Assembly: GCF_025979705.1 (NCBI RefSeq)
Contig: NZ_CP110136.1
Span: 3,968,001 to 4,032,000, forward strand
DNA length: 64,000 nt
Reading direction: 5' to 3'
DNA from: Hymenobacter sp. YIM 151858-1
Lineage (GTDB): Bacteria > Bacteroidota > Bacteroidia > Cytophagales > Hymenobacteraceae
Made by a program: the position numbers and the translations under genes. Positions 1 through 64,000 of this stretch are shown here, one piece after another. Numbering within the stretch: position 1 is the first letter of the stretch; each line of letters begins with the position of its first letter. Below the pieces are notes generated by a model. The model had not been told where the DNA came from, did not search any database, and was given only the letters and a program-made list of their open reading frames with translations.

Positions 1-2484
1 CCGGAAGCTTAGGCTATCGGGCATAGCGCCCGGGCCGGCGTTGCGCAGCACAAAGCGCGCCGTGTTGCCGGCTTGCACCTGCCCCGTAATGGCTACCGAG
101 GCTTTAACCCAATTGGGCGGGGCCGGGTAGGTGTTGGCTGGCGTAATCCAGGCGCGGGTGCACACCGTGCGGCCGCGCACCTCGGGGTTGTTGCAAGCCA
201 CCGAGTCTTGGATAACGATGCTGCCGCCCGCGTTGGCGGGCAGCGTACCTAGGGCAAACACGTAGCGGCCGGCTGCGTCGCGGGTGTAGGGCGCGCTGGC
301 CCGTACCAGCACTACCTCGGGCGGCAGCGCCACCGTTACGGCCGCGTTGGGCGCGGCGGCAAAGCCGCTGTTGGCGTAGCTTACGGTGGTGGTGTTGCGG
401 AAGCAGCGCCGGCGCCGGTCGGAGGCTACCTCCACGCGCAAGTAAGGCGCCGTGCTCACGTGGTGCGCAAAGTTGATACCGCTCGTGGCGTTGCCGTAGC
501 TGCGGAACACCACGGGCGTCTGCGGGGCGCAGGGCAGGGGCGTAATGGTGCGGCCCACCTCGCCCACGGGCAGCAGCGGGCGCACGGTGTAGCGGCCCGT
601 ATCCACGGCCATAAAATAGTGGCCGCTTTCGTCGGTGAGGCCGTAGTAGTCGCCGGGCTCGGCCACCACGGCAATGCCCGGCAAGGGCTCCTCGCCGGCG
701 TCGAACACGCAATTGTTGTTGGCGTCGTAGTACAATTGGCCCGAGAGCAGGTTGTGCGGCGGGCGCTGGCCCGCCGCGTAAAAGCGCACCACGTCGTTGG
801 CGTAGATCATGGAGAGCAGGCGGCTACCGTCGCGCGATACCGATACGCGGCTGCCGTACGCGGGCATGGGCCGCTCGGCGCTGCCGTCGGCGGCATAAAT
901 AATGCCCCCGTGCACCGAGCTGACGAGGTACACGTTGCCGCGGCCGTCCACGTCGAGGTCGGCCTCGCACACGGTTACGGTGGGGTTGCCGGGCCAGGGG
1001 TACGAGGGACCGTACTGCTTCAGCAACCGCCCCGCGGGGTCGAACTTCTGCACCCGGCGGCCGTCGTAGTCGGCTACGTACACGTTGCCGCGCAAATCAA
1101 CCGCTACCGCCTTGGGCGCCAGCACCTGCCCGTTGCCGGTGCCCCGCGTGGCAATGGTGCCCAGGGGCAGGCCCTGGGCGCTGAGCTTGCGCACCGTGCC
1201 GCCGTAGTAGTCGGCAATGTACAGGTTACCGGCAGCGTCGACGGCCAGGCCCGAAAAGCGTACATAGCCCCCGCCCGGCCCAAACGAAGTGATTTTGGAG
1301 ACAAAGCGGCCCCGGGCGTCGAACTTCTGCAGCCTGGATTGCGAATCGGAGGTTTCGAGCACGTAGATGTTGCCGAGCGCATCTACGGCAAAGCCGCCGA
1401 TGTATTGGCTGAACTGCCCGTCGCCGGTGCCTTGGCTGCCGAACTCCAGCACCAGCTCGCCGGCGGCGTTGTACTTGCGCACTTTGCCCCCGAATTCCTC
1501 TACGATGTACACGTTGCCGCTTTCGTCTTGCCGCACGTGCGAGTAGCGCGCGAGGTTGCCCCAGCGCCGCACCACGCGGCCGTCGGCCTCCAGCTGGTAA
1601 AGGTGGTCGGAGAGCACCTGGTGGGTAAACACGGTGGCGTACATGCGGCCGCCCCGGCCGCGCGCCAGCGCCGTGCGCGTGCTGCTCGTGAAATCGTAGG
1701 GCCCGGCCAGCGCCGTGAGGTACTGGCCCGTGGCGCTGAAGCGCATGGCCTGCATCTGCGAGCCGCTTACCACCAGCTCGCCCCGGGCCGTTACCAGCAA
1801 GTGGCTGGTGCGGTAGTAGCTCACCCACGGGCTGCCGCTCGGCGCGCCCAGCGGAAACTCGCTGAGCAGCTGGCCCGTAGCGGCCGACAGCTTGATGATG
1901 GCAAAATCCTGCCGCAGCACGTACAGCGCGCCGCTGGCGTCCACGTCTACATCGGTCAGGCCGCCGTTGTAGGGCAGGTTGGCGGCTTTGTATGCGAAGC
2001 GCAGGCGACCGTTCGGGTCGAAGCTTTGCACCCGCTGCGTGTAGCTGTCGATGGCGTACACGTTGCCGACGGCATCAACGCACAACGACTCGATTTGCTC
2101 GAACTGCCCCGGGCCGCTGCCCGGCCCGCCAAACTCCAGCACCAGCTGCCCGGCCGGGTCGTACTTCCGGATGATGGTGCCCGTGGAGCGGTACGAGCCC
2201 ACGTAGAGGTTGCCGGCGGCATCGGCGCCCAGGCAGCTGCCGTACACCGCCTGGCCGGTGCTGGTGCGCAGCGCAATGGTGGCCAGGTGGCGCCCCGTCG
2301 AGTCGAGCTTTTCCACGTCGCCCCGGTTAAGCACGTACACGTAGCCGCGGCCGTCGGTGGCTACGTCGAACGGCCCGTCGATGGGCGTGCCCATCAATTT
2401 TTCGAAGCGGTACGCGGGCCCAAACTGGGCCAGGCCCGGCAAGGCGCCCAGCAGCAAGGCTAGTGCGAGTAATAGTTTTTGCAT
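1..2484 (-). CDS. Secreted NHL-repeat beta-propeller protein with SdrB-like domain, 3' end cut by window
   Basis: The frame opens at an ATG (2484) and stays open for 828 codons to the left edge, so the C-terminus is missing. Residues 1-19 form a signal peptide ending GLAQ. Residues about 20-570 are many NHL-type repeats of the pattern DxxGNxYVxD followed by KFDxxG, an extracellular beta-propeller fold. Near residue 580 there is a YYDANNNCVFDAGE motif of SdrB-like or carboxypeptidase-regulatory domains, followed by a PGDYYG turn and DUF11-like beta-rich sequence. In Bacteroidota such proteins usually end in a type IX secretion sorting domain, which would lie outside the window. Function is unknown; extracellular or cell-surface location is inferred. 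Overlapping open frames on the other strand lack any family signal. Confidence 0.88.
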   Translation of the reverse strand, partial: MQKLLLALALLLGALPGLAQFGPAYRFEKLMGTPIDGPFDVATDGRGYVYVLNRGDVEKLDSTGRHLATIALRTSTGQAVYGSCLGADAAGNLYVGSYRSTGTIIRKYDPAGQLVLEFGGPGSGPGQFEQIESLCVDAVGNVYAIDSYTQRVQSFDPNGRLRFAYKAANLPYNGGLTDVDVDASGALYVLRQDFAIIKLSAATGQLLSEFPLGAPSGSPWVSYYRTSHLLVTARGELVVSGSQMQAMRFSATGQYLTALAGPYDFTSSTRTALARGRGGRMYATVFTHQVLSDHLYQLEADGRVVRRWGNLARYSHVRQDESGNVYIVEEFGGKVRKYNAAGELVLEFGSQGTGDGQFSQYIGGFAVDALGNIYVLETSDSQSRLQKFDARGRFVSKITSFGPGGGYVRFSGLAVDAAGNLYIADYYGGTVRKLSAQGLPLGTIATRGTGNGQVLAPKAVAVDLRGNVYVADYDGRRVQKFDPAGRLLKQYGPSYPWPGNPTVTVCEADLDVDGRGNVYLVSSVHGGIIYAADGSAERPMPAYGSRVSVSRDGSRLLSMIYANDVVRFYAAGQRPPHNLLSGQLYYDANNNCVFDAGEEPLPGIAVVAEPGDYYGLTDESGHYFMAVDTGRYTVRPLLPVGEVGRTITPLPCAPQTPVVFRSYGNATSGINFAHHVSTAPYLRVEVASDRRRRCFRNTTTVSYANSGFAAAPNAAVTVALPPEVVLVRASAPYTRDAAGRYVFALGTLPANAGGSIVIQDSVACNNPEVRGRTVCTRAWITPANTYPAPPNWVKASVAITGQVQAGNTARFVLRNAGPGAMPDSLSFR

Positions 2485-2669
2485 CGGCAGGCAACGAGGA
2501 TAGCTAACAGGCATTTAGCCCAATCAAAGCCTGAAAGTACGGCCCCACCCGCACGAAAACGCCAACGTGATAGGACTTTTTGAAGCTGATTTGCTTCCCG
2601 GGGCCTCGCTGCCAGCTCCCATGCCCGGCTCCGGCTCAGGCCACCTAGGGCGCGCGGGTTGGGTACGTA

Positions 2670-2711
2670 GCCAAACAGCCACCCGGCCCGGGGGCTAGGT
2701 GGCTGTTTGGC
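2670..2711. terminator. Hairpin between the DUF2383 gene and the NHL gene
   Basis: A perfect 14-bp inverted repeat (2670-2683 with 2698-2711) surrounds a GC-rich loop, 45 bases past the stop of the minus-strand DUF2383 gene. There is no U-tract, so termination is plausible but not proven. The remaining bases between 2485 and 2755 hold one CCTAGG word (2644) and the weak start region of the NHL gene; I see nothing else there. Confidence 0.5.
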
Positions 2712-2755
2712 GGTGAGCGGTGAGAGGCACTTTGGGCAGCGCGCGGCCGCGGTGG

Positions 2756-3529
2756 CTACGCCGGGTGTTGGGCGTGCAGCTGCTGCAGCCGGGCGTGGGT
2801 TTGGCGGGCGTGGGCGTACTGCCGCTCAATTTCGGCACCCAAGGCACCTAGGAGCGCAGGCTCGCGCAGGGCTTTTTCGTAGGCTTTCAGGGCCCACTCT
2901 TCGCCGTAAATGTTGTCGGCCAGAATGGCCTTTTCGCCGTGGCCGGTAAGGGCGGCTTTGGCCTGCATCCAGCCGCGGTACAGCTTGCCTTTGCGGGTGG
3001 TGCCGTGCTCGTACTCGGCGGCTTTATCGCGCAGGTAAGTATTTAGGCGTGTGGCAAACTCGTGGCTTTTGCCCGCCAGCTCGTGGTAGTAGCCGCGCAG
3101 TTCGGCGTCGCGGCTTTCGTGGTGGGCGCGGCGGTAGCCATCCACGCGGTCGTTCACAAACAACAGCAACTCGTGTAGGGCTTTGGCCTGCTTGCGGCTG
3201 CGTTTCTGCACGCGCTTGGCGGCTTTGGCCTTGCCGCCCCCGCGCAGCAGCAGCCAGCCACCTAGGGCTAGGGCGCCACCAGCAAGTAGTTTTTGCGGGG
3301 TGGTCAGCTGCCGCCAGGTATCTACGGACGACTTCGTGGCCTGACGAATTAGGTCTTGGGCGTTGCCACTTTTCAGCAGGTTAGCTGCTTTGTCTAGCCA
3401 TGGCTGCCCGGCAGCATTTGCCTCCTGTCCTGAGCTGCTTTGCGGAGCACCTAGGGAAGAGGCTCCTTGGTTAGCAACTGGCTGGCTGGTAGCGTCGTCT
3501 GGCAAACGGTTATCGGTAGGCTGGTTCAT
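2756..3529 (-). CDS. DUF2383 / PA2169-family four-helix-bundle protein with membrane anchor
   Basis: The 257-residue protein has a Ser/Gln/Ala-rich disordered N-terminus (1-45), a hydrophobic segment at about 81-96 and a long helical domain from about 115 to 240. That domain resembles the ferritin-like DUF2383 family, with a repeated pattern around NDRVDGYRRA, AGKSHEFATRLNTYLR and GTTRKGKLYRGWMQ. Family members are often stress-associated, but no reaction is established. The N-terminal hydrophobic piece suggests tethering to the inner membrane. A near-consensus -7 element (AACCTTTG on the minus strand, about 3585-3592) lies some 55 bases upstream. It appears to be a single-gene unit. Confidence 0.75.
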   Translation of the reverse strand: MNQPTDNRLPDDATSQPVANQGASSLGAPQSSSGQEANAAGQPWLDKAANLLKSGNAQDLIRQATKSSVDTWRQLTTPQKLLAGGALALGGWLLLRGGGKAKAAKRVQKRSRKQAKALHELLLFVNDRVDGYRRAHHESRDAELRGYYHELAGKSHEFATRLNTYLRDKAAEYEHGTTRKGKLYRGWMQAKAALTGHGEKAILADNIYGEEWALKAYEKALREPALLGALGAEIERQYAHARQTHARLQQLHAQHPA

Positions 3530-3924: not shown

Positions 3925-4194
3925 ATGCCTACTTCGCGCTTAAAGCCTGGTTCTCGCCGCCTCGTCGGCTTGTTGTTGATTGTAGCCGGCGGGTTGCTGG
4001 TAATTGCGCAAGTGCTCCGGTTTGGGGTGGTGGCCAGCGAGTGGAACGGGGCGGGCTGGGCAGGCGTGAACACGACGTACCTCATCATGTCGGTGCTGAT
4101 GCTGGTGGTAGCGGTGTTGCTGATTCGCTTTGGCTGGCGCATGCGGCGCGATGGGCACGTATCGGATGAGCCCGGCGATGGTGCCATCACCTAG
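3925..4194 (+). CDS. Small two-helix membrane protein, unknown function
   Basis: The 89-residue protein has two clear membrane helices, about residues 11-33 (GLLLIVAGGLLVIAQV) and 49-70 (TYLIMSVLMLVVAVLLI), with basic residues at the N-terminus and after helix 2 (RFGWRMRRD) and an acidic tail. The ATG at 3925 is preferred over one at 3913 because it precedes the basic pre-helix segment, and a near-consensus -7 element (TTGTTTTG) ends four bases before it. The stop codon TAG lies inside a CCTAGG word. I do not recognise a family. Confidence 0.6.
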   Translation: MPTSRLKPGSRRLVGLLLIVAGGLLVIAQVLRFGVVASEWNGAGWAGVNTTYLIMSVLMLVVAVLLIRFGWRMRRDGHVSDEPGDGAIT

Positions 4195-4283
4195 GGAATT
4201 TTGCTTCGATTTGGAGCTGCCATGCCACTAATGGGTGCCGGTTTTGCGCTGCTACCGGCCAGGGCTGCCTAACTTGCCGTGCT

Positions 4284-4820
4284 ATGTCGTCACCTCTCCG
4301 CATCACTACTGCCAAACGCAATGCTGCCACTGCTGCGCAGCTGGCCATTTTGGGCCGTCGTACGTTTCACGAGGCCTTTGCTGCCCAAAACAAGCCCGAG
4401 GACATGGCCGAGTACCTCGAGCAAACTTTCAGCCCCGATAAACAGCTGGCCGAGTTGCAGGCGCCCAATTCTTTCTTCTTTCTGGCGATGATGCAACAGG
4501 AGGTGGTGGGGTACGCCAAGCTCATCATTCCGTCGGCCCTAGGTGCCGAGCCGGGCACCGACGTAAGCACCCGGGCCGAAATTCAGCGCCTGTACGTGCT
4601 GGAAGACTGGATTGGCACCGGCCTGGGCGCAGCCCTGATGCGGCGCTGCATTGAGGAAGCGCGGGAGCGGGGCTGCCGCTCGGTGGTGCTGGGCGTGTGG
4701 GAGAAAAACGAGCGCGCCATAGAGTTCTACCGCCGTTTTGGCTTCAAACACATTGGCGGCATCGACTTTAAGCTGGGCCAGGACGTGCAGCACGACCTGA
4801 TTCTGCGCAAGGGGCTGTAA
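4284..4820 (+). CDS. GNAT-family N-acetyltransferase, PaiA-like
   Basis: The 178-residue protein shows the GNAT fold: strand beta4 IQRLYVLEDW, the acetyl-CoA pyrophosphate-binding loop IGTGLGAAL at about 110-118, and the C-terminal NERAIEFYRRFGF motif. The overall pattern, including TFHEAFAAQN near the N-terminus and VLGVWEKNERAIEFY, resembles the spermidine/spermine acetyltransferase PaiA of Bacillus. A polyamine or small-amine substrate is therefore an inference. It stands alone, with about 100 bases to the next gene. Confidence 0.85.
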   Translation: MSSPLRITTAKRNAATAAQLAILGRRTFHEAFAAQNKPEDMAEYLEQTFSPDKQLAELQAPNSFFFLAMMQQEVVGYAKLIIPSALGAEPGTDVSTRAEIQRLYVLEDWIGTGLGAALMRRCIEEARERGCRSVVLGVWEKNERAIEFYRRFGFKHIGGIDFKLGQDVQHDLILRKGL

Positions 4821-4921
4821 TACCGCGGGCCGGGCTTCGTTGGCAGCAGGTGCCTACATTTGGCAGCAGCTACTGCACCTAGGAGGTAGTAGCTGCATAC
4901 AGGAACACTGAACGCGCGCTT

Positions 4922-6310
4922 ATGCTTTTCTGCCAACGCCTGCGGGCGCTGCTGATGCTTACCGGCTGCTGGGCCCTGATTTCCCTAGGTGGGTGTTCGT
5001 CGAAGGATCAGCAAACCGAGGTGGCACCCCCCACCGGCCACTACGAGGGCACCCTTACCGCCAACGGTACGCCCTTGCGCGTGGTGCTCGATGTGCGGCA
5101 GGACACCACGCAGGCGCTGCAGGCCGAGGTGTACTTCCCGGAATGGCAACTGCTGGGCTTTCCGGCCGAGCAATTGCGCTACGAGCACCCGCAGCTGCTA
5201 TTTGTGCACCGCCAGCCCGAGGGCCGCGCCATACAATTCAGCCTGCGGCACGAGGGCAACTTCCTGCAAGGCGCATTCAAAACCGATTCGGTGCAGGCCG
5301 AGGTGCTGCTGATTCGGCGCGACCAGGCACCTGCCAAGCCGTACCGCGAAGTAGCCCTGCGCTGGCAAACGGCCGCTGGCCCCGCTGCAGGTACCTTGCT
5401 GGTGCCCAACGATACCGTGCTGCAACACCCCGCCGTGGTACTGTTACACGGCAGCACCACGCCGCACCGGCACGAGCTAAGCCCCTACGCTACCTGGCTG
5501 GCCCGCCACGGCATTGCCACGTTGGTGTTCGACCGGCGCGATGCCCGCGCAGCCAAAAACCAGCCGCAGCAGTATGGTTTGCAGGATTTGGCTGCCGATG
5601 CCGCCGCTGCTCTGCGCAAGCTCAAGCAAAATCCCGAAATCGATTCGACGCGCGTAGGCTTGTGGGGCATCAGCCAAGGCGCTACGGTTGCCGCCCTGGT
5701 AGCCGGGCAACCAAGCCGGCCCGCTGCTTTTGTGGTGGGCGTATCGGCGCCGGGCATGTCGTTGGCCGATGTGGTGCAGTACCAAAACGAAGAAGCCCTG
5801 GCAAAGCAAGGCGCCACCAAAGCCGAGCAGGCGCAGGCGTGGCGCACCTTTGAGGCGCTGGAACGCTACGTGCGCCGGCCCACCAGCAAAACCGAAACCG
5901 CCAAAGCCACCGAGCTGCTGAGCAATGCCTTGCAGCAACCGTGGGCGCGCTTTACCACCTTGCCCCAACAGCTGCCCGATACGGCCGCCATCCGGACCAA
6001 CTTTTACTGGCGCACGCTGAACTACGACCCGCGCGATGCCTGGCAGGATGTGCGCGTGCCGGTACTGCTGCAATACGGCACCCACGATGAGCGCCTCGAT
6101 GCCCGCGCCAGTGCCGAGCGGCTGCGCTTGGCGGCCGGCCGGCGCGGCAGCTCGCTGGTGCGCGTGTACGCCGGCGCCAACCACGAGCTGATCCTGCCCG
6201 CCACCACCGTGGCTGAAGGCGAAGCCGGCCAGCAGTGGCAGTGGCCCCGCCCCGTGCCCGGTTACCTCGAAGAGCAGCTCGAGTGGCTGCAGGCGCGTAT
6301 CAGCAAGTAG
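4922..6310 (+). CDS. Alpha/beta-hydrolase lipoprotein (dienelactone-hydrolase/S9-like)
   Basis: The 462-residue protein begins with a lipoprotein signal peptide whose lipobox SLGGC puts the lipidated Cys at 25. Residues about 35-130 form a beta-rich N-terminal domain. The alpha/beta-hydrolase domain follows with the oxyanion motif VVLLHGS, nucleophile elbow WGISQGA (Ser251), likely acid Asp389 (YGTHDERLD) and His421 (GANHEL). The family hydrolyses ester or peptide bonds; the substrate is unknown, and a periplasmic-facing membrane location is expected. Its TAG stop is the first three bases of a 39-bp inverted-repeat arm. Confidence 0.85.
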   Translation: MLFCQRLRALLMLTGCWALISLGGCSSKDQQTEVAPPTGHYEGTLTANGTPLRVVLDVRQDTTQALQAEVYFPEWQLLGFPAEQLRYEHPQLLFVHRQPEGRAIQFSLRHEGNFLQGAFKTDSVQAEVLLIRRDQAPAKPYREVALRWQTAAGPAAGTLLVPNDTVLQHPAVVLLHGSTTPHRHELSPYATWLARHGIATLVFDRRDARAAKNQPQQYGLQDLAADAAAALRKLKQNPEIDSTRVGLWGISQGATVAALVAGQPSRPAAFVVGVSAPGMSLADVVQYQNEEALAKQGATKAEQAQAWRTFEALERYVRRPTSKTETAKATELLSNALQQPWARFTTLPQQLPDTAAIRTNFYWRTLNYDPRDAWQDVRVPVLLQYGTHDERLDARASAERLRLAAGRRGSSLVRVYAGANHELILPATTVAEGEAGQQWQWPRPVPGYLEEQLEWLQARISK

Positions 6311-6437
6311 CGCGGCTGTAGCGCGGACTTTGTAGTCCGCGTCCCCAGATAGCATCATCAATCGTTGACCTAGGGCCTGAAGGTTAAGGTTACTATCCGG
6401 GGACGCGGACTACAAAGTCCGCGCTACAGCCGCGCTA
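6308..6437. repeat. Long inverted repeat (39-bp perfect arms) between convergent genes
   Basis: Arms 6308-6346 and 6399-6437 are perfect reverse complements. Each arm also carries its own imperfect palindrome (CGCGGAC, 6 bases, GTCCGCG), so the element can fold at two levels. It fills the space between the hydrolase (+) and radical SAM (-) genes and could act as a two-way terminator. Size and structure also fit a palindromic mobile element (REP or MITE type). One ACCTAGGG word lies in the central spacer. Confidence 0.8.
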
Positions 6438-6457
6438 CCGCATTCTTTCCTAGGTAG

Positions 6458-8800
6458 CTACACCAGCAACAAGCCCTTTTCGCGCAACAGCAGCCACTGC
6501 GGCGAAATCATAAACGCCTCGAAGCTCAGGCCGGCCTCGGCGGCGGGGTAGGTAGCGGCTACTTCCTTTAGCAGGCGCTTGGTATCGTAATCGAAACTGA
6601 GCTCACCTAGGAGTTGGTGCAGCCACCGGCCGATTACGGGCGTGGTCTTCAGCTCAAAATCCTCGGCTTGTTCGTAGAAAGTCAGGACGGCCTGCTCAAT
6701 TTGGCGACCTTTCTTCTGGCGCGTTTCGAAGCGGATTTCCGGCGCGTTGCCCAGCCAAAACACGCGCATGTTTTGCTTGGCCGAATCAGGCTTGCCGGGC
6801 TCCGTAAGGGCCGACTCGATCAGGTTGCGGGGTACCGTGGTACGCGGCACCCGGAAATCAAACCAGAACTGCAGCGGCTCGTCGAGGGCTACGCCGTGCA
6901 TGTAGTTGTACAGCGCCTTGGCGAGGCCCGGCCCAAACTGCTCGTGGTCGGCGCCGGTGGGGTCGTCGTGCCACAGGTCGTTCCAGGCAAAGCCCTCGAA
7001 CGCGGGGCCGATTTGCCGCACCTGGTACTTCGCGGGGTTTTTGCCCACGGGCGAGTGGGCCGTCATGGCAAAGCGGTGCCAGAAACCCGATTGCACCACG
7101 CCCGCCGCCAGCAGTTGCCGCACCACCTCCAGCGAGTCAATGGTTTCCTGGGCGGTTTCGGTGGGGAAGCCGTACATTAGGTAGGCGTGCACCATAATGC
7201 CGGCTTGCGTGAAGCCGTCCGTCACGCGGGCTACCTGGGCAATGCTCACGCCTTTCTCCATGAGCGCCAATAGGCGGTCGGAGGCAACCTCCAGGCCACC
7301 CGATACGGCAATGCAGCCCGAGGCCGCGAGCAGGCGGCAGAGGTCGGGCGAAAAGGTTTTCTCGAAGCGGATGTTGCCCCACCACGTGATGCTCACGCGG
7401 CGCTTCAGCAGCTCAATGGCCAAATCGCGCAGGGCCAGCGGCGGCGCGGCTTCATCCACGAAGTGAAAGCCGGTTTGGCCGGTTTGCCGCACAATCTGCT
7501 CGATGCGGTCGACGAGCAAGGTAGCCGGCGCGGTTTCGTAGCGGCTGATGTAATCGAGCGTTACGTCGCAGAAGGAGCAACGCTTCCAGTAGCAGCCGTG
7601 CGCCACCGTCAGCTTGTTCCAGCGGCCGTCGCTCCAGAGGCGGTGCATGGGGTTCAGCACCTCAATTACCGAAAGGTACTCCGTCAGGGGCAAGCCGTCG
7701 TAATCGGGGGTGCCTACCTCGGTGTGCGGGATGTTGGCATCCTGGCAGCCGTTGAGGTACTCCACCTGACCTAGGGCATTGCGGTGGAAAGTGCGCTGGA
7801 ATTGGGTTGCCAGGGGTGAGTTGTCAGTTGTCAGTTGCGCGTTGCCAGTGGGGTTGTCGACGGTGGCGGCTTCGGCGGTTTGGTACGCAACGTTCTCCTG
7901 ACAACTCGCAACTGACAACTGACAACTCTCAAGCGGCAACTGGCACCTGAAAAACTCCAACAGTTTCAGCCACGGGCCTTCGCCGTCGTCGAGGGTGAGG
8001 TAATCGATGTAGTCGAAGAACCGGGGCTCCTGTATCTGGCGCAGCTCGGTGTTGGGGTAGCCGCCGCCCATCAGGGTTTTTACTTCGGGCCGCAGTTGCT
8101 TGAAGTGCTTGGCCAGCCGCAAAGCGCCGTAGAGGTTGCCGGGAAAGGGCACCGTAAAGCCCACTACATCGGGCTGCTCGCGCTCCAGCACCGCCGTGCC
8201 CAACTCCAGCAGCATTTCATCAACCAGGTTCGGGGCCTGTTGCAGGGCCGTGTGCAGGGGCTCAAATGAAGTAGCCGTAAGCCCCAGGTGCTCGGCGTAG
8301 CGGCTCAGGCCAAACTGCGGCCCCACGGTTTCCTTGATGAGGTCGTTGAGGTCTTCGAGGTACAGCGTGGCCAGGTGCCGGGCCTGATCGGTGAGGCCCA
8401 TGGTGCCAAAGGCGGTTTCGAGGTCGGCCACCTGGTCGAAGCGCGCGGCCTCGGGCAGGTAGCGGCCGTGGCAGATGCGCGAAGCCAGCGTCAGGTCTTT
8501 GTTCTGCAGAAAGCGAATGACCGGCTCGATGGTCATTTCGTAGCGCCGGCGCAGGCGCAGCATGCGGCGGGCGTTGTCGCTCAGCTCGAACGCGCCCTGC
8601 TCCACGGCATCGAACACGCGCCGCAGCCCCGCCGCCGAAAACAGCTTCAGCACCAGCTCAATGCCTAGGTCGGCTTGCGCTACCTGAAAGCCTTGACCCC
8701 GCAGAAAGCCGGTAATGTAGGCCGTGGCAGGGTAGGGGGTATTGAGCTGCGTGAGCGGCGGCGTAATGAGGAGGATGCGGGGCGTAGAATTCGTCGGCAC
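6458..8800 (-). CDS. B12-binding-domain radical SAM protein
   Basis: The 780-residue protein has an N-terminal cobalamin-binding-like domain (PRILLITPP at the start, DVVGFTVPFPGNLYGAL and MGGGYPNTE within 1-270). A radical SAM domain follows, whose cluster motif GCYWKRCSFC places cysteines at about 403, 408 and 411. The family uses a 4Fe-4S cluster and SAM for radical chemistry; the substrate is unknown. The GTG at 8800 is preferred because the in-frame TTG at 8827 would sit only nine bases after the -7 element TACCTTTG (8836-8843), near the expected transcript start. Residues about 284-332 are a low-complexity insert made by an inverted repeat. The cysteine spacing is CX4CX2C rather than the common CX3CX2C. 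Confidence 0.85.
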   Translation of the reverse strand: MPTNSTPRILLITPPLTQLNTPYPATAYITGFLRGQGFQVAQADLGIELVLKLFSAAGLRRVFDAVEQGAFELSDNARRMLRLRRRYEMTIEPVIRFLQNKDLTLASRICHGRYLPEAARFDQVADLETAFGTMGLTDQARHLATLYLEDLNDLIKETVGPQFGLSRYAEHLGLTATSFEPLHTALQQAPNLVDEMLLELGTAVLEREQPDVVGFTVPFPGNLYGALRLAKHFKQLRPEVKTLMGGGYPNTELRQIQEPRFFDYIDYLTLDDGEGPWLKLLEFFRCQLPLESCQLSVASCQENVAYQTAEAATVDNPTGNAQLTTDNSPLATQFQRTFHRNALGQVEYLNGCQDANIPHTEVGTPDYDGLPLTEYLSVIEVLNPMHRLWSDGRWNKLTVAHGCYWKRCSFCDVTLDYISRYETAPATLLVDRIEQIVRQTGQTGFHFVDEAAPPLALRDLAIELLKRRVSITWWGNIRFEKTFSPDLCRLLAASGCIAVSGGLEVASDRLLALMEKGVSIAQVARVTDGFTQAGIMVHAYLMYGFPTETAQETIDSLEVVRQLLAAGVVQSGFWHRFAMTAHSPVGKNPAKYQVRQIGPAFEGFAWNDLWHDDPTGADHEQFGPGLAKALYNYMHGVALDEPLQFWFDFRVPRTTVPRNLIESALTEPGKPDSAKQNMRVFWLGNAPEIRFETRQKKGRQIEQAVLTFYEQAEDFELKTTPVIGRWLHQLLGELSFDYDTKRLLKEVAATYPAAEAGLSFEAFMISPQWLLLREKGLLLV
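7818..7928. repeat. Inverted repeat inserted in frame in the radical SAM gene
   Basis: Arms 7818-7839 and 7907-7928 are perfect 22-bp reverse complements, built on tandem copies of GTCAGTT and AACTGAC. The translated segment is Ser/Gln/Thr/Asn-rich and separates the two conserved parts LLEFF and FQRTFHRNALGQ, so it looks like an insertion that kept the frame open. Confidence 0.8.
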
Positions 8801-9431: not shown

Positions 9432-9787
9432 GCGGTGGGGTTGTTGCGGGGCGGGCGGGCTGCGGCGGGCTCGGCCGACCTAGGGGCCGCCGGGCGGCTA
9501 TGGCGCTTGGGTTGCGGCGTGGGCGCCTCGGCCCAGGTGCGGCCAAACCAGTTGTCGGCGGCCCAGTTCACAAACGGTACCACCGCCAAAAAAGTGACAC
9601 TCAGCAGAATGAACCACACGAAGGTGGCCCCGGCCAAGCGGCCGAAGAAACTGCTGTCGAGCCCAAACAAATACGCAACCAGGGCAAACGATAGTACCAC
9701 ACTAATGCCCAGCAGCAAGCCAGCCCGCCGGAGCAAGGGGCGGTACGCAAACGCAGCAGGCGACGAACGACGACGGGGAGCAGCCAT
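9428..9787 (-). CDS. Small membrane protein upstream of the HMA-AraC regulator
   Basis: The 119-residue protein has a basic N-terminus, two membrane helices (about 22-42, LLLGISVVLSFALVAYLFG, and 52-73, TFVWFILLSVTFLAVVPFV) and a Pro/Ala/Arg-rich tail. It overlaps the regulator by four bases, forming one operon. The -7 element TATCTTTG ends four bases before its ATG, so the mRNA may be leaderless. No family is recognised; a link to metal stress is inferred only from the neighbour. Confidence 0.65.
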   Translation of the reverse strand: MAAPRRRSSPAAFAYRPLLRRAGLLLGISVVLSFALVAYLFGLDSSFFGRLAGATFVWFILLSVTFLAVVPFVNWAADNWFGRTWAEAPTPQPKRHSRPAAPRSAEPAAARPPRNNPTA

Positions 9788-9799: not shown

Positions 9800-9907
9800 T
9801 TAGCTGGCAGCCGCGCGCACCTAGGGCCCAGCAACCAGGCGGCGTAGGTAGCCAAGGACTGCAAAACCAGCTACATAACCAATCCACCGAAAGGACGTTT
9901 GTGCTAG

Positions 9908-10296: not shown

Positions 10297-10337
10297 CAAC
10301 AAGGCCCCGCTACCACCTAGGGAGCGGGGCCTTGTTG
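10297..10337. terminator. Bidirectional terminator between convergent genes
   Basis: A 15-bp perfect GC-rich stem (10297-10311 with 10323-10337) lies between the lipoprotein (+) and BtuG-like (-) genes. Its loop contains the word ACCTAGGG. Confidence 0.8.
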
Positions 10338-11493: not shown

Positions 11494-13452
11494 CTAGTGC
11501 CAGCCCAGGCGCAGGCTTACCATGCCCGAGCGGCCCGGCATGGCCCGGCCGGCGTAGTTCTGGTAGCTTTGGTTGGTGAGGTTGTAGCCTTGCACCAGGC
11601 CTGTGAGGGTGTAGCGCCCTAGGTGCACGGTGCGGCCGGCGCTGGCATGCAGCAAGGCATAGCCCGGCAGGTAGTCGTCGGCCGAGGCCGTGGTGTAGCG
11701 GTACCCCGTAAACACGCCGTTGAGGGCCAGCTGCCAGTTGCGCCACCCGTGCTGCGTACCCACCGCGGCCGAGTGCAGCGGCACGTAGCGTAGCTGGTTG
11801 CCCACGGGGTCGAGGTCGGCCGCGTAGCCGCTCACCTTGCGGGCTTGCGTGTAGGCGTAGGCCGCCGTAGCACTCAGCCGGTAAGCCCCCAGGCGCAGCT
11901 GGGCCTGCGTGCTGGCCTCGATGCCGCGGCTCCGCACCCGCCGCACGTTGCGCGGGGCCAGCACGCCGCCCGCCGGAATCCACTCTACCCAGTTATCAAC
12001 CAGTAAGTGGTAGGCCGTAAGGTCGGCTTGCACAGCCACGGGCAGCCGGGTGCCCAGCTGGCCTTCGTAGTGCAAGCCGCTTTCGTAGCCCACGCCGGTT
12101 TCGGGCCGCAAATCGGGGCGCGCTACGCCGCCCCAGTACCGTTCGTTCAGGGTGGGGGCGCGGTAGCTGCGGGCCGCATTGGCCTTCAGCCACAGCTGCT
12201 GATGCTGCGTACGCCACAACTGGTATTCGGTACCTAGGGTAGGGGCCAAAGGGGCGCGCCGGCCGGGCAGCACGGCCTGGCGGGCATTCAGGGTAAGGCG
12301 CAGGCGGGCCGTGGGGTCGTAGCGCAGCAGGGCGATGCCGGCGTAGCGCTGCTCGGTAATGTGCCGCCGGTAGCCATCCACATCGGCCACAAAGTGCTGG
12401 GCCTCGGCCCCCAGGCGCAGGCTGGCGTTGGGCCGCCACTGCAGGGTGTGCTCGGCCTGGGCCTGCCACACCGCCGTAGCCGAGTTGCTGGGCTGCACCT
12501 GGTCGTTGTAGTAGCGAATGTTGTCGGCGAAGCGGGCGGCGCGCACGGCGGTTTCGCTGCGGGCGCCGCGCCGGCGGTACCCCAGTACCAGGCGGCCGCT
12601 TTCGTCTTGCTGCCGGGCGTGCGCATCGGCCGAGCCGATGGCGGGCTGAATCTGGCGGTCGGAGCGCGTAAACCAGGCCGAGGCCGTCAGCTCCGACGTT
12701 GGGCTGAGCTGCACATTCAGCTGCTGCGTGAAGCTGCTCTGCTGCAAGGCCGCGCTGGCTTGCCGGTGCCGCACCGGCCCCCCGAAATCGAGGGCCGTGT
12801 ACGGGAAGTTGTTTTCGGCCGAGCGCACCAGCAAGCTGGTTTGCACGGCCACGTGCGCGTCGCGGTGGCTGCCCTCGAAGCTAACTGCGCCGTAGCCGAA
12901 GCTGCCGGCCTCCAAGGTGGCGCTTACCTGCTGGCCCAGCCGGGGCGCGGCCGGGCCCAGCACCACGGCCCCGCCCATAGCACCAGTGCCGTACAGCGCG
13001 GCGGCGGGCCCGTGCTGCACGCTCACCTGGCCCACCGAGGCCACCGGCAACAGCGCCATATCGGCCTCGCCGAGGGTCGGGAAGTTTACGCTGAAGCCGT
13101 TCCAGAGCACCGCGGTATGCCGACCCGAAGTGCCCCGAATAGATAAAGTAGCCAACTGCCCCGGCCCGTAGGTGCGCAGGTACAGCGGCGTGCGGGCCGA
13201 CAGGGCATCGGCCACCGAGGCCGACTTAAACGGCACCAGCGCGGCCGAATCGAGCACGGTAAAGCGGCTGCCGGCGGCGTAGCGCGTGGGGCGCTGGGCC
13301 TGCACCTGCACTGCGGGCAGCACGTGCCGGGCGGTATCGGGCGGGGCAGCAGGGGCGGGCCGCTGCGCCTGCGCCGCAGCCGAGGCGCCGAGCCACAAGG
13401 CCACCGTAGCCCAGCCGCCGCCCAGCCGCCGGAAAAGGGTAAAAGCGTACAT
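11494..13452 (-). CDS. btuB: TonB-dependent receptor, BtuB-like cobalamin transporter
   Basis: The 652-residue outer-membrane receptor has a signal peptide ending AAAQAQ and a plug domain (about 50-165) with LPAVQVQAQR, ATLSIRGTSGRHTAVLWNGF and VQHGPAAALYGTGAMGG. The 22-strand barrel ends in the aromatic-flanked SGMVSLRLGWH typical of such porins. The ATG at 13452 is preferred to an in-frame TTG at 13461. The transcript begins with a cobalamin riboswitch, so cobalamin or another corrinoid is the expected cargo. The BtuG-like lipoprotein gene follows in the same unit. The inner-membrane transporter (btuFCD) is not in this window. Confidence 0.87.
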   Translation of the reverse strand: MYAFTLFRRLGGGWATVALWLGASAAAQAQRPAPAAPPDTARHVLPAVQVQAQRPTRYAAGSRFTVLDSAALVPFKSASVADALSARTPLYLRTYGPGQLATLSIRGTSGRHTAVLWNGFSVNFPTLGEADMALLPVASVGQVSVQHGPAAALYGTGAMGGAVVLGPAAPRLGQQVSATLEAGSFGYGAVSFEGSHRDAHVAVQTSLLVRSAENNFPYTALDFGGPVRHRQASAALQQSSFTQQLNVQLSPTSELTASAWFTRSDRQIQPAIGSADAHARQQDESGRLVLGYRRRGARSETAVRAARFADNIRYYNDQVQPSNSATAVWQAQAEHTLQWRPNASLRLGAEAQHFVADVDGYRRHITEQRYAGIALLRYDPTARLRLTLNARQAVLPGRRAPLAPTLGTEYQLWRTQHQQLWLKANAARSYRAPTLNERYWGGVARPDLRPETGVGYESGLHYEGQLGTRLPVAVQADLTAYHLLVDNWVEWIPAGGVLAPRNVRRVRSRGIEASTQAQLRLGAYRLSATAAYAYTQARKVSGYAADLDPVGNQLRYVPLHSAAVGTQHGWRNWQLALNGVFTGYRYTTASADDYLPGYALLHASAGRTVHLGRYTLTGLVQGYNLTNQSYQNYAGRAMPGRSGMVSLRLGWH

Positions 13453-13937: not shown

Positions 13938-14537
13938 ATGAAGCTCCTGCACGACTACTACCGCCAACCCGATGTGGTGGCCCTGGCCCGCGACCTGCTC
14001 GGCAAATACCTGTTCACTTGCATCGATGGGGTGCTCACGGGCGGCCGCATCGTCGAAACCGAGGCCTACGCCCACGTGGGCGACCAGGCCTGCCACTCGC
14101 ACCTAGGGCGGTTTACCAAGCGCACCAGCGTGATGTACGAGGCCGGCGGCGTGGCCTACGTGTACCTGATTTACGGCCGCTACGCCTTGTTCAACATCAT
14201 CACCAACGAAGCCGGCAAAGCCGATGCCGTGCTGATTCGGGGCCTCGAACCCACTGAGGGCGTGGCTGAAATGCAGCTGCGCCGCGGCCTCGCCGCCGTT
14301 ACGCCCAAGCTCACGGCCGGCCCTGGCTTGCTCACGCAGGCCCTGGGCATCAGCACCAGGCACTACGGCACCGACCTCACGGGCAACCTCATCTGGCTCG
14401 AAGACCTAGGGGAGACGGTGCCCGACGAGCAAGTGCTAGCCAGCCCGCGCGTCGGCATCGATTACGCGGGTGACGATGCCGCGCTGCCGTGGCGCTTCCG
14501 CATCAGGGGCAATAAATGGACGAGCCCGGCCAAGTAG
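13938..14537 (+). CDS. mpg: DNA-3-methyladenine glycosylase (AAG/MPG family)
   Basis: The 199-residue enzyme removes alkylated purines from DNA as the first step of base-excision repair. Family marks are visible in order: LLGKYL near the start, RIVETEAY with the catalytic Glu, YVYLIYGRYALFNI, GPGLLTQALGI and PRVGIDYAGD followed by PWRF. Length is normal for the bacterial family. It stands alone, divergent from the B12 uptake operon, and is followed by a purine-rich inverted repeat. Confidence 0.92.
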   Translation: MKLLHDYYRQPDVVALARDLLGKYLFTCIDGVLTGGRIVETEAYAHVGDQACHSHLGRFTKRTSVMYEAGGVAYVYLIYGRYALFNIITNEAGKADAVLIRGLEPTEGVAEMQLRRGLAAVTPKLTAGPGLLTQALGISTRHYGTDLTGNLIWLEDLGETVPDEQVLASPRVGIDYAGDDAALPWRFRIRGNKWTSPAK

Positions 14538-14658
14538 AAGGAGGAAGGAAGAATGAAGAAGGACGATGCGCCTAGGTTTCAGATGAAGGAAGAAGGAGGA
14601 ATGAGGAAGGACGAACCAGATTGCCAATTCGTCCTTCCTCATTCCTCCTTCTTCCTTC
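14538..14658. repeat. Purine-rich repeat with 31-bp perfect inverted arms
   Basis: Arms 14585-14615 and 14628-14658 are perfect reverse complements based on GAAGGAGGAATGAGGAAGG. A degenerate direct copy of the left arm lies at 14538-14566. The element fills the space between the convergent mpg and methyltransferase genes; a GCCTAGGT word lies between the copies. It may terminate transcription from both sides, but its low complexity suggests a lineage-specific repeat. Confidence 0.8.
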
Positions 14659-44235: not shown

Positions 44236-44267
44236 TATTGGTCAGCCGCACGAAAGCAATTACCTAG

Positions 44268-44300
44268 GAGCCGCGGTATAACACGCGGCTCTTTTAATTT
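44268..44300 (+). terminator. Terminator after the DUF3467 gene
   Basis: An 8-bp GC-rich stem (44268-44275 with 44284-44291) is followed by TTTTAATTT. An ACCTAGGA word overlaps its 5' edge. Confidence 0.8.
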
Positions 44301-49302: not shown

Positions 49303-50646
49303 ATGTTCTGGCGTGCAGCCACGGGCCAGCTTTCAACGTCTGTGAATATTTCTGTCGCTTCAAATACATCCGTTTGGATATCAAAGGACCGCATCCAACT
49401 GGCCACTGCAGTAAGTTGTAGCATGGTCATAGCGGGTCTTTACACGATACCTTTCTTCAGGGTGCTGGCCAGCATCGGTCAAATCTGTCTGGCCTTATCA
49501 GCTATTATGTATTTGCTGACCCACAGGCAGGTTGGGCAACGGCAGAAGTGGCACGTGTACCTAGGGTTTGTAATTATCTACCTTATGCACTTTGGTGCAG
49601 GACTTATCACTAACTCGGGCAATAGCAAAGAATACTGGCGCGACCTTGTGCTGCAGCTGCCTTTTCTGGTGTTGCCCCTCGCATTCTGGGTACTTCCCCC
49701 GCTGCCCGTGAAGTACCTCAGTCGATTGTACAAATTGTTGTTAGGGCTGACCACACTCTCAGCTGTGGGAAGCACCTTCTACTACCTTCAGCATAGCGAG
49801 GCGATAAACGAGTTATACACCCGATCCAAAGTAATGCCGACAGTACCCGATCATATCCGGTTTAGCTTGCTTGTTGCGCTATCAATCGCGGTAGGCGCGG
49901 TACTCCTCAACCGCGAAGCATTGCGGGGCTGGCGTCGGGGAGTTGTCCTGGGAATAACCGTGTTTCTGGCGGGGTATCTGCACTTATTGGCAGTGAGAAG
50001 TGGTTTGTTAGCGCTTTATGTACTGGGGGTAGTTGCGATTGGGTATCTGCTGTGGCGAAGAGCATGGCGCAAAGCGTTAGTGCTAGCTGTTACCCTCGTG
50101 GTATTGCCCATAGCAAGCTATTTCTTGCTGCCTACGTTTTACAATAAGTACCATAACACGCGCGATGACGCCAGCAGGGTTGACCAGACTCATTCTGCTA
50201 ACAGCTACTCATTGGTAGGAAGGGTATACTCCTATCAAACGGCGATAAGTGTGTGGCGCGACAACCCAGTCTTTGGGGTGGGAAAGGCAGACTTACAAGA
50301 TGAAATGTCGCACTACTACCGTAGACATTTCCCGCAAATAGATGATGAGCACCACATCCAGCCGCATAACCAGTTTTTGTTTTATCTGGTGTCATTTGGA
50401 GGGTTGGGAGTGCTGGTCTTTGCACTGGCGTTCTACTTCCCGCTGTGGTGGTCGCGGCATCGGCATGCTCCTTTGCTTATCTCCCAATACATCATCGTAA
50501 CGCTCTCCTTCTTGGTAGAGCCAACCCTAGAAACCCAAACGGGGCTGACGTTCGCCCTTTTCTTCCTGCTGCTGCCTTTGAGCAGTGTAACCAATGATGG
50601 TAGGGAAGAGGTCATAAAAAAAGGCCTCGAATGGAGACCTGCCTGA
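49303..50646 (+). CDS. Second O-antigen ligase family protein, inside the ribosomal cluster
   Basis: The 447-residue protein has about ten to twelve membrane helices and the O-antigen ligase pattern: the loop with VGRVYSYQTAISVWRDNPVFGVG, then PHNQFLFYLVSFGGLGVLVF. It is distantly similar in layout to the ligase at 21365-22660. Start choice is uncertain: the frame is open from 49207 inside the terminator, so the ATG at 49303 is preferred. Codon use is plainly less biased and lower in GC than its ribosomal neighbours, which suggests insertion. A capsule, LPS or wall-polymer substrate is possible. Confidence 0.75.
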   Translation: MFWRAATGQLSTSVNISVASNTSVWISKDRIQLATAVSCSMVIAGLYTIPFFRVLASIGQICLALSAIMYLLTHRQVGQRQKWHVYLGFVIIYLMHFGAGLITNSGNSKEYWRDLVLQLPFLVLPLAFWVLPPLPVKYLSRLYKLLLGLTTLSAVGSTFYYLQHSEAINELYTRSKVMPTVPDHIRFSLLVALSIAVGAVLLNREALRGWRRGVVLGITVFLAGYLHLLAVRSGLLALYVLGVVAIGYLLWRRAWRKALVLAVTLVVLPIASYFLLPTFYNKYHNTRDDASRVDQTHSANSYSLVGRVYSYQTAISVWRDNPVFGVGKADLQDEMSHYYRRHFPQIDDEHHIQPHNQFLFYLVSFGGLGVLVFALAFYFPLWWSRHRHAPLLISQYIIVTLSFLVEPTLETQTGLTFALFFLLLPLSSVTNDGREEVIKKGLEWRPA

Positions 50647-50790
50647 GCATATTATCGGGTGAAAAACCTAGGCAAACGCTCTAGCAAATTACTGACCATT
50701 TCCACCATAAGCCCTAGGTGAAGGAAGAGCGGTTTAGCCAAAGGCTTAAGGGAAGTGCTTGAGTTAGAGAAGCAAGGGGCAATACGCAGG

Positions 50791-52512: not shown

Positions 52513-53340
52513 ATGGCACTCAAAAAACTAAGACCAACATCACCGGGTCAGCGCTTCCGCATCGCCCCGGCTTTCGACGAGATTACGACGTCGACGCCGG
52601 AGAAGTCGCTGTTGGCACCCAAGAAAAAATCCGGTGGCCGGAATGATTCCGGAAAAATGACCAACCGTTACATCGGTGGTGGTCACAAACAGCAGTATCG
52701 TATTATCGACTTCAAGCGCAGCAAGCATAGCGTGCCTGCCACTGTTAAGGAGATTGAATACGATCCGAACCGTACGGCTCGCATCGCTTTGATCAGCTAC
52801 GCTGATGGCGAAAAGGCGTACATCATTGCACCTGCTGGCCTGCAAGTAGGCGCTACCGTAGTAGCAGGGCCTGGCGTAGCACCCGAGTTGGGCAACGCCC
52901 TTCCGCTGCGCGATATGCCCCTAGGTACCATTGTTCATAACATTGAACTGATGCCTGGTGGTGGTGCTGTTCTTGCCCGTTCGGCTGGTACTTACGCACA
53001 GCTTGTTGCCCGCGAAGACAAGTACGCAACCCTAAAGTTGCCCTCCGGTGAAATGCGAATGGTACTTGTTACCTGCATGGCCACAGTAGGCACCGTGTCG
53101 AACGCTGACCACATGAACGTACGTCTCGGCAAAGCCGGTCGTCACCGTTGGTTGGGTTACCGTCCGCGCGTACGTGGTGTTGCTATGAACCCCGTTGATC
53201 ACCCGATGGGTGGTGGCGAGGGCCGCTCGAGCGGTGGTCACCCGCGCAGCCGCAAAGGCCTGCTCGCGAAAGGTGCCAAGACTCGCAACAAGAACAAGTA
53301 CTCTGAAAACCTCATCGTTTCGCGTAAAGGCAAGAAGTAA
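52513..53340 (+). CDS. rplB: Ribosomal protein L2
   Basis: The 275-residue protein of the peptidyl-transferase region has [20 protein letters not shown] near the N-terminus and the highly conserved [20 protein letters not shown] with the functional histidine. Its TAA shares a base with the rpsS ATG. A CCCTAGGT word encodes Leu-Gly near 52919. Confidence 0.98.
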
Positions 53341-55990: not shown

Positions 55991-55991
55991 G

Positions 55992-57565: not shown

Positions 57566-58073
57566 AGTCGGCACTTATGTTGCGTACATCCTTTAACTGC
57601 GTCTCCTACGTGTCGTATGGGTTGATTTATAAGAAAGCTTTGTACCTCGTTAAGGCAAACATTCAAGGCGCATCACATATAATGAATGTATGAATTTGAA
57701 AGTCAGGCTGAGCAGTTTCTGAACTATATCTGGAGGATCCGAGTTTCCGCACCTAGCTTGTTTAGGAATACTTAATAATGTCGAGCATAAGCGTGCTCCA
57801 GTTAAGTTTGCCTTGTCAGCTTTCGGCTTGGTCGTTGGGTTGTAAGTACTATCGATATTGTAACAACAAATAACTTTCATTTTACAAAGGCCCAAAGGCT
57901 ACACAGAGCTTTAGGCGGACATAGTTTTTGGGGAAGTCGTGTTGGCAACTCTTCCTATGAAGAAGAGACCTAGGCTGGTAATTAGTTTGATTAGAAGTTG
58001 CCTTGCTTGATTTCACTAGAACTTTGTACCAATTAAGCACTTACGTCTATTGCTTTTGTATTGAGCATAAGTG

Positions 58074-59631: not shown

Positions 59632-60150
59632 ATGCGCGAGCAAAATAAACCCACGGCGAAGACCACGGAGTCGGACCTAAAGGAAAAAGTAGTTGCCATC
59701 AACCGCGTAGCGAAGGTGGTAAAAGGTGGTCGTCGCTTTAGCTTCTCGGCCATCGTAGTAGTAGGTGACGGCGCTGGTACGGTAGGCTACGGCCTAGGCA
59801 AAGCCAACGAAGTTACGGACGCCATTGCTAAAGCCATTGACGATGCCAAGAAGAACCTGGTGAAGGTGCCGCTGTACAAGCACACTGTTCCTCACGTGAT
59901 GGAAGGCAAGTACTCTGGTGGCTACGTGCTGGTTCAGCCAGCTGCTGCTGGTACGGGCGTAATTGCCGGTGGTGCTATGCGTGCCGTGTTCGAAAGCGCC
60001 GGCATTAAAGACGTATTAGCTAAATCGAAAGGTTCGTCAAACCCCCACAACGTGGTTAAGGCTACTTTCGATGCCCTAAACAAGATGCGCGACCCGATGC
60101 AGATTGCACAGCAGCGCGGCATCTCTCTCGCCAAAGTATTCAACGGCTAA
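59632..60150 (+). CDS. rpsE: Ribosomal protein S5
   Basis: The 172-residue protein has [37 protein letters not shown] and the later [20 protein letters not shown]. It helps decoding fidelity. A GCCTAGGC word encodes Leu-Gly in the GLGKA motif. Confidence 0.98.
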
Positions 60151-63262: not shown

Positions 63263-63284
63263 GCAACACAAGCAATAGAAGAAC

Positions 63285-63662
63285 ATGGCACGTATTGCAG
63301 GGGTAGATATCCCGGACAAAAAGCGCGGCGAAATCGCCCTTACCTACATCTTTGGCATCGGTCGTTCGTCGGCTGCCGCTATCCTTACGAAAGCAGGTAT
63401 TGACCTGAACAAGAAGGTAAGCGAGTGGACGGAAGCTGAGTCGGGTGAGATTCGTAGCATCATTGCTGCGGAGTACAAGACCGAAGGTGTGCTGCGCTCG
63501 GAAGTACAGCTCAACATCAAGCGTCTGATGGATATCGGTTGCTACCGTGGCCTCCGTCACCGCAAAGGGCTGCCGGTTCGGGGTCAGCGTACGAAGAACA
63601 ATTCGCGCACCCGCAAAGGCAAACGGAAGACCGTTGCCGGCAAGAAGAAGGCTACCAAATAA
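63285..63662 (+). CDS. rpsM: Ribosomal protein S13
   Basis: The 125-residue protein has [33 protein letters not shown] and the C-terminal [20 protein letters not shown] with a basic tail. It contacts the P-site tRNA. About 80 bases separate it from rpsK. Confidence 0.98.
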
Positions 63663-63741
63663 ATTTTAGCGGAAATCGGCAGCGGGCCTTCTCATTAATC
63701 CACTGCTGCCAACACCTTCCGCTCTTTTTTGCGATAACCAA

Positions 63742-64000
63742 ATGGCACAAAAAAGAAAAGACAAAGCCAAGAAGCGCATCGTCCAGGTTGAAGCAACCGG
63801 TCAGGTGCACATCAAGGCTTCGTTCAACAACATCATCATCTCGGTTACGAACAACAACGGCCAGGTGATTTCGTGGGCTTCGGCCGGCAAAATGGGTTTC
63901 CGCGGTTCTAAAAAGAACACTCCCTATGCTGCCCAAACCGCTGCTCAGGACTGCGGTAAAGTAGCCTACGACCTAGGCATGCGCAAGTGCGAGGTATTCG
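63742..64000 (+). CDS. rpsK: Ribosomal protein S11, 3' end cut by window
   Basis: The first 86 codons are present: [39 protein letters not shown] and [20 protein letters not shown] are S11 signatures. The gene runs off the right edge. rpsD, rpoA and rplQ would be expected next. A CCTAGGC word encodes Leu-Gly at 63972. Confidence 0.97.

Follow-up and report, generated by a model that had tools for sequence, protein, structure and literature searches.

The window analysed here is a 64,000-nucleotide stretch of the Hymenobacter sp. YIM 151858-1 genome, covering positions 3,968,001–4,032,000 of a 4.36-Mb contig (C1) in a 4.62-Mb assembly of three contigs. It contains tuf, rplA, rpoB, rpoC and rplB, all five assigned by Pfam, and its RpoB shares 90% identity with that of Hymenobacter jeongseonensis and with that of a Rufibacter isolate, in keeping with a position in the Hymenobacteraceae (Bacteroidota). 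Spread over these genes, their neighbours and the spacers is a short directional DNA word built on CCTAGG, which a sequence-only reading of the window had pointed out and which is the subject of this analysis. An exact count returned 66 CCTAGG where base composition predicts 19.8, reproducing the tally of that reading. Thirty-nine sites carry one of two directional 8-mers (21 CCCTAGGT and 18 ACCTAGGG) and three carry a symmetric form (one ACCTAGGT and two CCCTAGGG), again in agreement with it. As it had also claimed, the word is present in all five genes, where it encodes Leu-Gly on the plus strand of tuf (30814..30820), rplA (33465..33471), rpoB (37437..37443 and 38466..38472), rpoC (40877..40883) and rplB (52920..52926). 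The site at 10316, described as lying in a terminator loop, does occupy the loop of a hairpin that is perfect and terminator-like (CCTAGGT at 10315..10321, minus strand), and the word at 4190 (4189..4195, minus strand) supplies with its TAG the stop codon of a called gene (3976–4194).

The enrichment holds genome-wide, with 3,106 copies of CCCTAGGT, 1,551 on the forward and 1,555 on the reverse strand. Over 464 kb of the genome, an order-3 Markov model predicted 11.5 copies of CCCTAGGT and 327 were observed; for CCTAGG on both strands, 1,120 were observed against 199 expected. The count therefore lies far above the Markov expectation rather than near it. An 824-kb sample of the chromosome contained 568 CCCTAGGT, about one per 1.45 kb, and 945 CCTAGGT. 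A maximal-order Markov model confined to the window predicts 53.9 CCTAGG, a high figure because the word's own 5-mers are enriched there. A reverse-read control word (2 matches) was set aside in favour of the Markov expectation because it includes GATC, which is itself depleted in the genome (observed/expected 0.44). No longer repeat unit, whether a repetitive extragenic palindromic (REP) element or another dispersed repeat, was found around the word, and the flanks are near background outside positions −2 to +9 and +29 to +34.

The strict core of the word is CCTAGGT, preceded by C at a frequency of 0.60, G at 0.28, T at 0.08 and A at 0.04. Variants of this core drop to about the level of the genus mates that are free of the word (five of the eight genomes in the genus), the main exception being CCCTAGGG, with 39 versus 0 copies per Mb. 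In G000, the genome holding the window (G labels denote genomes of a 204-genome family set), two-strand counts gave 689 CCCTAGGT versus 41 ACCTAGGT per Mb. A degenerate partner block, GGSASC, accompanies the core at a fixed +29 to +34. GGCA stands at +29 in 72 of 936 G000 sites (7.3 expected); the relative G004 has it there in 31 of 325 (2.4 expected). Partner scores of at least 5 of 6 were found at 203 of 944 exact CCTAGGT cores versus 148 of 2,561 single-mismatch cores, a sum that includes many CCTAGGG and CCTAGGC that are the same sites on the opposite strand. Sense, antisense and spacer sites all show the block, whose sequence is similar to what the GGTGCC side of the core gives when reverse-complemented. 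Fully inverted pairs whose starts are separated by 32 bp numbered six in the G000 sample and four in the G004 sample, and in both genomes 32 bp is the commonest spacing of inverted pairs once overlapping palindromes are put aside. The interiors of the six G000 pairs are unrelated; five of these pairs are fully contained in spacers, and the sixth extends five bases into the end of a gene. Taken together, these patterns suggest that word and partner form a double-stranded-DNA footprint with two inverted contacts.

A hairpin or base-pairing origin of the +29 partner was rejected, the pairs it predicts showing no covariation (positions 7 and 31, z 0.8; 8 and 30, z 1.1). Among the 15 pairs considered, covariation peaked at positions 8 and 29 (z 3.0) and 9 and 29 (z 2.8), with Watson–Crick fractions no higher than expected. 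When viral contigs were scanned for the complete inverted pair, the outcome was one 5.4-kb contig with two CCTAGG, which is uninformative.

With genes called by a simple trained program (coding fraction 0.811), 579 of the 945 sites of the 824-kb sample fall within genes, 294 in spacers and 72 across gene edges, which corresponds to densities of 1.89 per kb in spacers versus 0.87 in genes. Spacers are disproportionately loaded, as proposed; in the window, the gene caller places 22 of the 66 sites in spacers and 44 in genes, where the sequence-only reading had estimated about 18 in spacers. Genic sites read overwhelmingly as Leu-Gly (523 of 579, as had been proposed), the remaining 56 as Pro-Arg. 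CTA is far from equally common before other residues: it accounts for 601 of 1,997 Leu codons (30.1%) before Gly versus 716 of 22,169 (3.2%) elsewhere. TAG stop codons lie inside CCTAGG in 14 of 266 cases. Because the word also fills spacers and Pro-Arg codons, the Leu-Gly reading with CTA follows from the word and is not its cause.

Orientation in the window shifts at about 19 kb, from 5 CCCTAGGT and 16 ACCTAGGG before this point to 16 and 2 after it, and the coding strand likewise flips there. Both the shift and its partial tracking of gene direction were correctly noted in the sequence-only reading, but they do not extend to a genome-wide trend. In the 824-kb sample, CCCTAGGT lies on the forward strand 292 times and on the reverse strand 276 times, with no polarity, and the strand bias that the same reading had proposed to test relative to origin and terminus did not show between the chromosome halves, with forward/reverse counts of 338/294 in the first half and 149/164 in the second (a weak test, the origin not having been located).

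Within the window, the partner block is complete (score 6 of 6) at three minus-strand CCTAGGT, two in spacers (2643..2649 and 4877..4883) and one in a gene (29432..29438). A score of 5 was reached on the minus strand in genes at 2846..2852, 3449..3455, 12232..12238 and 26865..26871 and in spacers at 6368..6374 and 50666..50672, and on the plus strand in the rpoB–rpoC spacer at 39092..39098 and in rpoC at 41381..41387, 41966..41972 and 43586..43592; the rpoB–rpoC spacer holds a further plus-strand copy at 39359..39365. CCTAGGT encodes Leu-Gly on the minus strand at 247..253 and Pro-Arg at 9478..9484 (minus) and at 18324..18330, 21971..21977, 24649..24655 and 29515..29521 (plus), and the palindromic ACCTAGGT at 21571..21578 is also read as Pro-Arg in a gene. 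The other genic copies of CCTAGGT are at 3260..3266, 6605..6611, 7769..7775, 14101..14107, 14404..14410, 15466..15472, 18930..18936 and 63971..63977 on the minus strand, and at 4538..4544, 4984..4990, 8664..8670, 11618..11624, 17049..17055, 19627..19633, 20209..20215, 20784..20790, 21057..21063, 22126..22132, 27642..27648 and 28320..28326 on the plus strand. Further spacer copies lie at 6449..6455, 14571..14577, 26446..26452 and 50713..50719 (plus) and at 9819..9825, 16630..16636, 25606..25612 and 57968..57974 (minus). No called gene covers 44262..44268 (minus), 44405..44411 (plus, spanned by an open reading frame at 44307–45053), 45366..45372 (minus) or 49559..49565 (minus, spanned by an open reading frame at 49207–50646). 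The remaining CCTAGG are one without the T flank at 19966..19971 (gene), those within CCCTAGGG at 21153..21158 (gene) and 35048..35053 (spacer), one within TCCTAGGG at 30195..30200 (spacer) and one within GCCTAGGC at 59793..59798 (gene).

We then compared aligned positions between relatives. Between G000 and G004, 99 of 149 CCCTAGGT are intact versus 3,274 of 7,352 (44.5%) 8-mers of the same composition; the corresponding figures for other controls are 14 of 52 for near-words and 36 of 179 for other CTAG 8-mers. The excess in retention is seen in genes (126/173 versus 0.49 for controls) and in spacers (41/71 versus 0.39). In the five word-free genus mates, which are 86–92% identical to G000 across rpoB–rpoC DNA, none of 84 aligned words is intact (14, 13, 13, 22 and 22 sites), and CCTAGG is intact at 8 of 171 aligned places. 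What stands there instead varies widely and in many cases differs from the word by several substitutions, as in CGCTGGGT, CCCTCGGC and CTCTGGGC. Judging by these alignments, the word appears to be gained or lost rapidly between close relatives.

Across the 204 genomes of the family, nine have more than 300 copies of CCCTAGGT and none of the others more than 90; CCTAGG numbers 5,325–8,806 in those nine, 1,209–2,331 in four more and at most 888 in the remaining 191. k-mer statistics on samples resolved three dialects: NCCTAGGT in G000, G004 and G005; CCTAGG with G or T in G088 and G104 and CCTAGGG in G072; and ASCTAGST in G030, G036 and G123. In a 22-taxon rpoB+rpoC tree, the nine CCTAGG-rich genomes form three dialect clades, each with an ultrafast bootstrap of 100, with word-poor genomes between them. 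A fourth dialect, first seen as CTAGGCC(A) in a 20-kb sample of G041, is the non-palindromic CTAGGCCA, with 4,554 copies in G041, 4,306 in G043, 4,381 in G137 and 2,587 in G129. None of the other 200 genomes has more than 544 copies. This dialect was read from the G041 sample alone, the other three genomes being unsampled before the scan. These four are the same genomes that have intermediate CCTAGG counts, so that 13 of 204 genomes in the family are rich in a word with a CTAG core. Word positions held in common between genera gave a mixed picture (G104, 6/11 versus 8/27; G036, 1/10 versus 13/26), and the distribution could reflect either repeated gain or an ancestral word that was lost many times.

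Other sequence peculiarities were recorded in the same genomes. GATC is absent from 60, 60 and 80 kb of G088, G104 and G072, respectively, and from 23.9 kb of L107, and GGATCC occurs at most 30 times per genome in 43 of 120 genomes of genus g4, independently of the CTAG word. G072 carries, besides CCCTAGGG, a longer dispersed repeat with AAGCATCTCT and GTCATGCTGA (17–20 copies in 80 kb), and a tandem-like repeat of ACTGACAACT dominates the sample k-mers of the word-free genus mate G002. CTACCCCC and CCTACCCC are mildly enriched in a 20-kb sample of G044 and are possibly another word, the sample being small.

The word is nearly missing from the two smaller contigs of the same cell. C2 (140,000 of 158,200 bases sampled) and C3 (complete, 100,856 bases) together hold 2 CCCTAGGT in 240,856 bases, where the chromosomal density predicts 166. 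C3 matches Hymenobacter plasmids, and C2 matches them weakly. On the chromosome itself, a lower-GC stretch of C1 (3,000,001–3,020,000) is poor in the word, with 3 sites in 20 kb, and resembles a recent island, with a gene for a cytosine methyltransferase shortly beyond it, at 3,021,030.

Searches for candidate machinery showed that ComEC (PF03772) is encoded by 203 of the 204 family genomes. A PilB/PilT-type ATPase (PF00437) was found in none of 27 genomes, whereas 14 of 14 control genomes were positive. Among methyltransferases, PF01555 matched in four, PF00145 in two and PF02384 in eight of the nine CCTAGG-rich genomes, PF02384 being missing from G005. Word-free genus mates have all three families as well, PF02384 being present in five of five. 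None of these three Pfam families (searched in 21 to 24 genomes) thus provides a cytosine or adenine methyltransferase common to all nine, other families not having been searched; a lineage-specific methyltransferase behind the word is possible. No account of a word of this kind in Hymenobacter turned up in the open-access literature searched, in which papers containing the string CCCTAGGT were covered in part.

Several processes could fill a chromosome with such a word. An artefact of composition, codon usage or a protein motif draws on the predominance of Leu-Gly at genic sites, yet we give it virtually no credence: it is refuted by the order-3 counts and by the restriction of frequent CTA to Leu before Gly, spacers are denser than genes, and close relatives with the same proteins lack the word. 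Distinctly improbable, too, is a lineage-specific mutational or gene-conversion process, driven for example by a selfish nuclease or a repair enzyme, that writes the word without benefit. Such a process would suit a word scattered over thousands of unrelated positions, genic as well as intergenic, with diverse predecessors in the word-free mates; but these predecessors are often several substitutions off, so no single base change suffices, and the retention of copies above controls, spacers included, and the sparing of the plasmid-like contigs argue against it. We also regard as unlikely a process akin to that of the highly iterated palindrome HIP1 of cyanobacteria, in which a methyltransferase would act on a CTAG palindrome and methyl-directed or very-short-patch repair would ratchet the neighbouring bases, leaving the word as a by-product of repair. 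The density of about one per kb, the alternates between lineages and the deviations at outer positions all resemble those that Elhai's account gives for HIP1 (PMC4390886). In addition, CCTAGG, CCCTAGGG and ACCTAGGT are all palindromes, and each of the nine CCTAGG-rich genomes has a match in at least one of the three methyltransferase families. Against this, no single family is present in all nine, and the plasmid-like contigs of the same cell are without the word. A strict HIP1-like palindrome is further weakened because the selected word, CCTAGGT, is asymmetric despite its palindromic CCTAGG, because a short methylation site leaves a one-sided contact 29 bp away unexplained and because the dialect CTAGGCCA is not a palindrome.

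Equally to be weighed is a role in chromosome maintenance, with the word serving as a chromosome-only site for a nucleoid, segregation or recombination protein, of the type of Chi, FtsK-orienting polar sequences (KOPS) or SMC-loading sites. In its favour are the chromosome-specific density, a footprint that is bipartite and dyad-like, as is typical for a dimeric DNA-binding protein, and the complete inverted pairs at 32 bp, which lie within spacers or at their edge. Signals of this kind are usually conserved within a genus, however, and here five of eight genus members lack the word and dialects differ between clades; a KOPS- or Chi-type reading is weakened further because strand polarity is lacking between the chromosome halves, as counted without a mapped origin. 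On balance we consider such a role doubtful. Of the options that the sequence-only reading had left standing (uptake sequence, Chi/KOPS-type signal or HIP1-like palindrome), an uptake-like word fits best, because of its density, its directionality, the contrast between chromosome and plasmid-like contigs, and the clade dialects with their common core.

By analogy with known uptake words, we therefore tentatively favour, at a little under an even chance, the interpretation that CCTAGGT ([C/G]CCTAGGT, with an optional GGSASC at +29 to +34) is a lineage-specific, uptake-like self-recognition word, probably used in pilus-free transformation. A double-stranded-DNA-binding receptor would favour fragments that carry the word; imported conspecific fragments would recombine into the chromosome, spreading new words and retaining old ones by molecular drive; and plasmids, where they do not recombine with these fragments, would remain word-free. 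Drift of receptor specificity could then give a clade a new dialect on the same CTAG core. The import step would be pilus-free, as in Riemerella, because the type IV pilus motor is lacking. We infer that the reader acts in DNA uptake or recombination and that the copies were made by transformation drive. The broader proposal, which we hold somewhat more loosely still, is of a Bacteroidota DNA-uptake word system with at least four CTAG dialects, a pilus-independent double-stranded-DNA receptor that would contact a pair of inverted half-sites separated by about 26 bp, and fast gain and loss among sister species more than 90% identical in rpoB–rpoC DNA.

Our confidence in the uptake-like interpretation goes no higher because the reader protein was not found, and several results count against it. 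No reader protein or gene tracking with the word emerged among the families searched, and ComEC, being present in word-free genomes too, does not discriminate. The one Riemerella surface domain checked, DUF5689 (PF18942), which occurs in a transformation protein of that genus, was rejected as the reader. It matched short proteins in five of six CCTAGG-rich g4 genomes and in G041 and, weakly and below the curated cut-off, in G004 and G005; there was no match in G000 or G072, and at least 11 genomes with such matches are without abundant CCTAGG. The two g4 loci scanned both have a SusD-like neighbour, and the 329-residue G004 protein, which has a phosphatase-N/fn3 match, adjoins a mutS2-like gene. 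The literature searched holds no demonstration of natural transformation in these strains. The +29 peak in G005 (10 of 54) is equalled by one at +32, and the partner was not seen in G088, G104 or G072. Even spacing was sought and not found, the gaps being random (coefficient of variation 0.99, 355 gaps). Spacer enrichment is not special to the word, either: other control words have spacer/gene ratios of 0.36 to 1.31, but the CTAG-bearing CCTAGCT reaches 5.5 (33 sites, 18 in spacers versus 14 in genes), so part of the word's own spacer excess may come from a general cost of CTAG in genes. The plasmids may simply be recent arrivals. Finally, no contrast between core and accessory DNA was seen within the chromosome, which in part tells against uptake: DNA aligning to G004 holds 231 words in 202,718 bases (1.14 per kb) and DNA not aligning to it 64 in 57,282 (1.12 per kb), although young imports might be expected to carry fewer words.

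If the uptake-like interpretation is right, sequence-specific DNA self-recognition reaches a phylum that lacks type IV pili, and the species, some wordless and some using one dialect or another, form a natural set in which to watch how such words arise, drift and are lost. The bipartite footprint offers a concrete bait for pulling out the reader. Should a methyltransferase or a nucleoid protein be responsible instead, a phenomenon of the HIP1 kind would have been found beyond the cyanobacteria, open to the same experiments. Under any of these interpretations, the on/off contrast within one genus makes it testable how genomes gain thousands of copies of a word.

Uptake signal sequences of the Pasteurellaceae have a similar density and consist of a core followed at a fixed distance by a degenerate downstream part. 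The word described here resembles them in these respects, but its core is different, its downstream part is GGSASC rather than AT tracts, and there is no pilus. Like the DNA uptake sequences (DUS) of the Neisseriaceae (PMC3630211), it is short and directional, with thousands of copies per genome, and has clade dialects around an invariant core (CTG there, where dialects follow phylogeny, and CTAG here), with some genomes of the family wordless. It differs from DUS in belonging to Bacteroidota rather than Betaproteobacteria, in the lack of a pilus motor in 27 genomes and in its second contact at +29, and no ComP-like receptor is known for it. Although the word would work like a DUS, we do not claim membership, because the pilus motor was looked for and not found. 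HIP1 likewise occurs about once per kb, with alternate palindromes by lineage on a tetranucleotide core and the loosest fit at outer positions (PMC4390886); the present word departs from it in being asymmetric, in having one non-palindromic dialect and in that none of three methyltransferase families is common to word-rich genomes. The portions of the Riemerella studies available to us report no uptake word (PMC8459023 and PMC7965970), and the DUF5689 lead taken from that genus failed here. Riemerella nonetheless offers a parallel within the same phylum: according to those portions, it transforms without pilus genes, requiring ComEC, DprA, ComF and new proteins (PMC8459023), and R. columbina favours its own DNA, which competes for uptake where an equal dose of R. 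anatipestifer or Escherichia coli DNA does not (PMC7965970).

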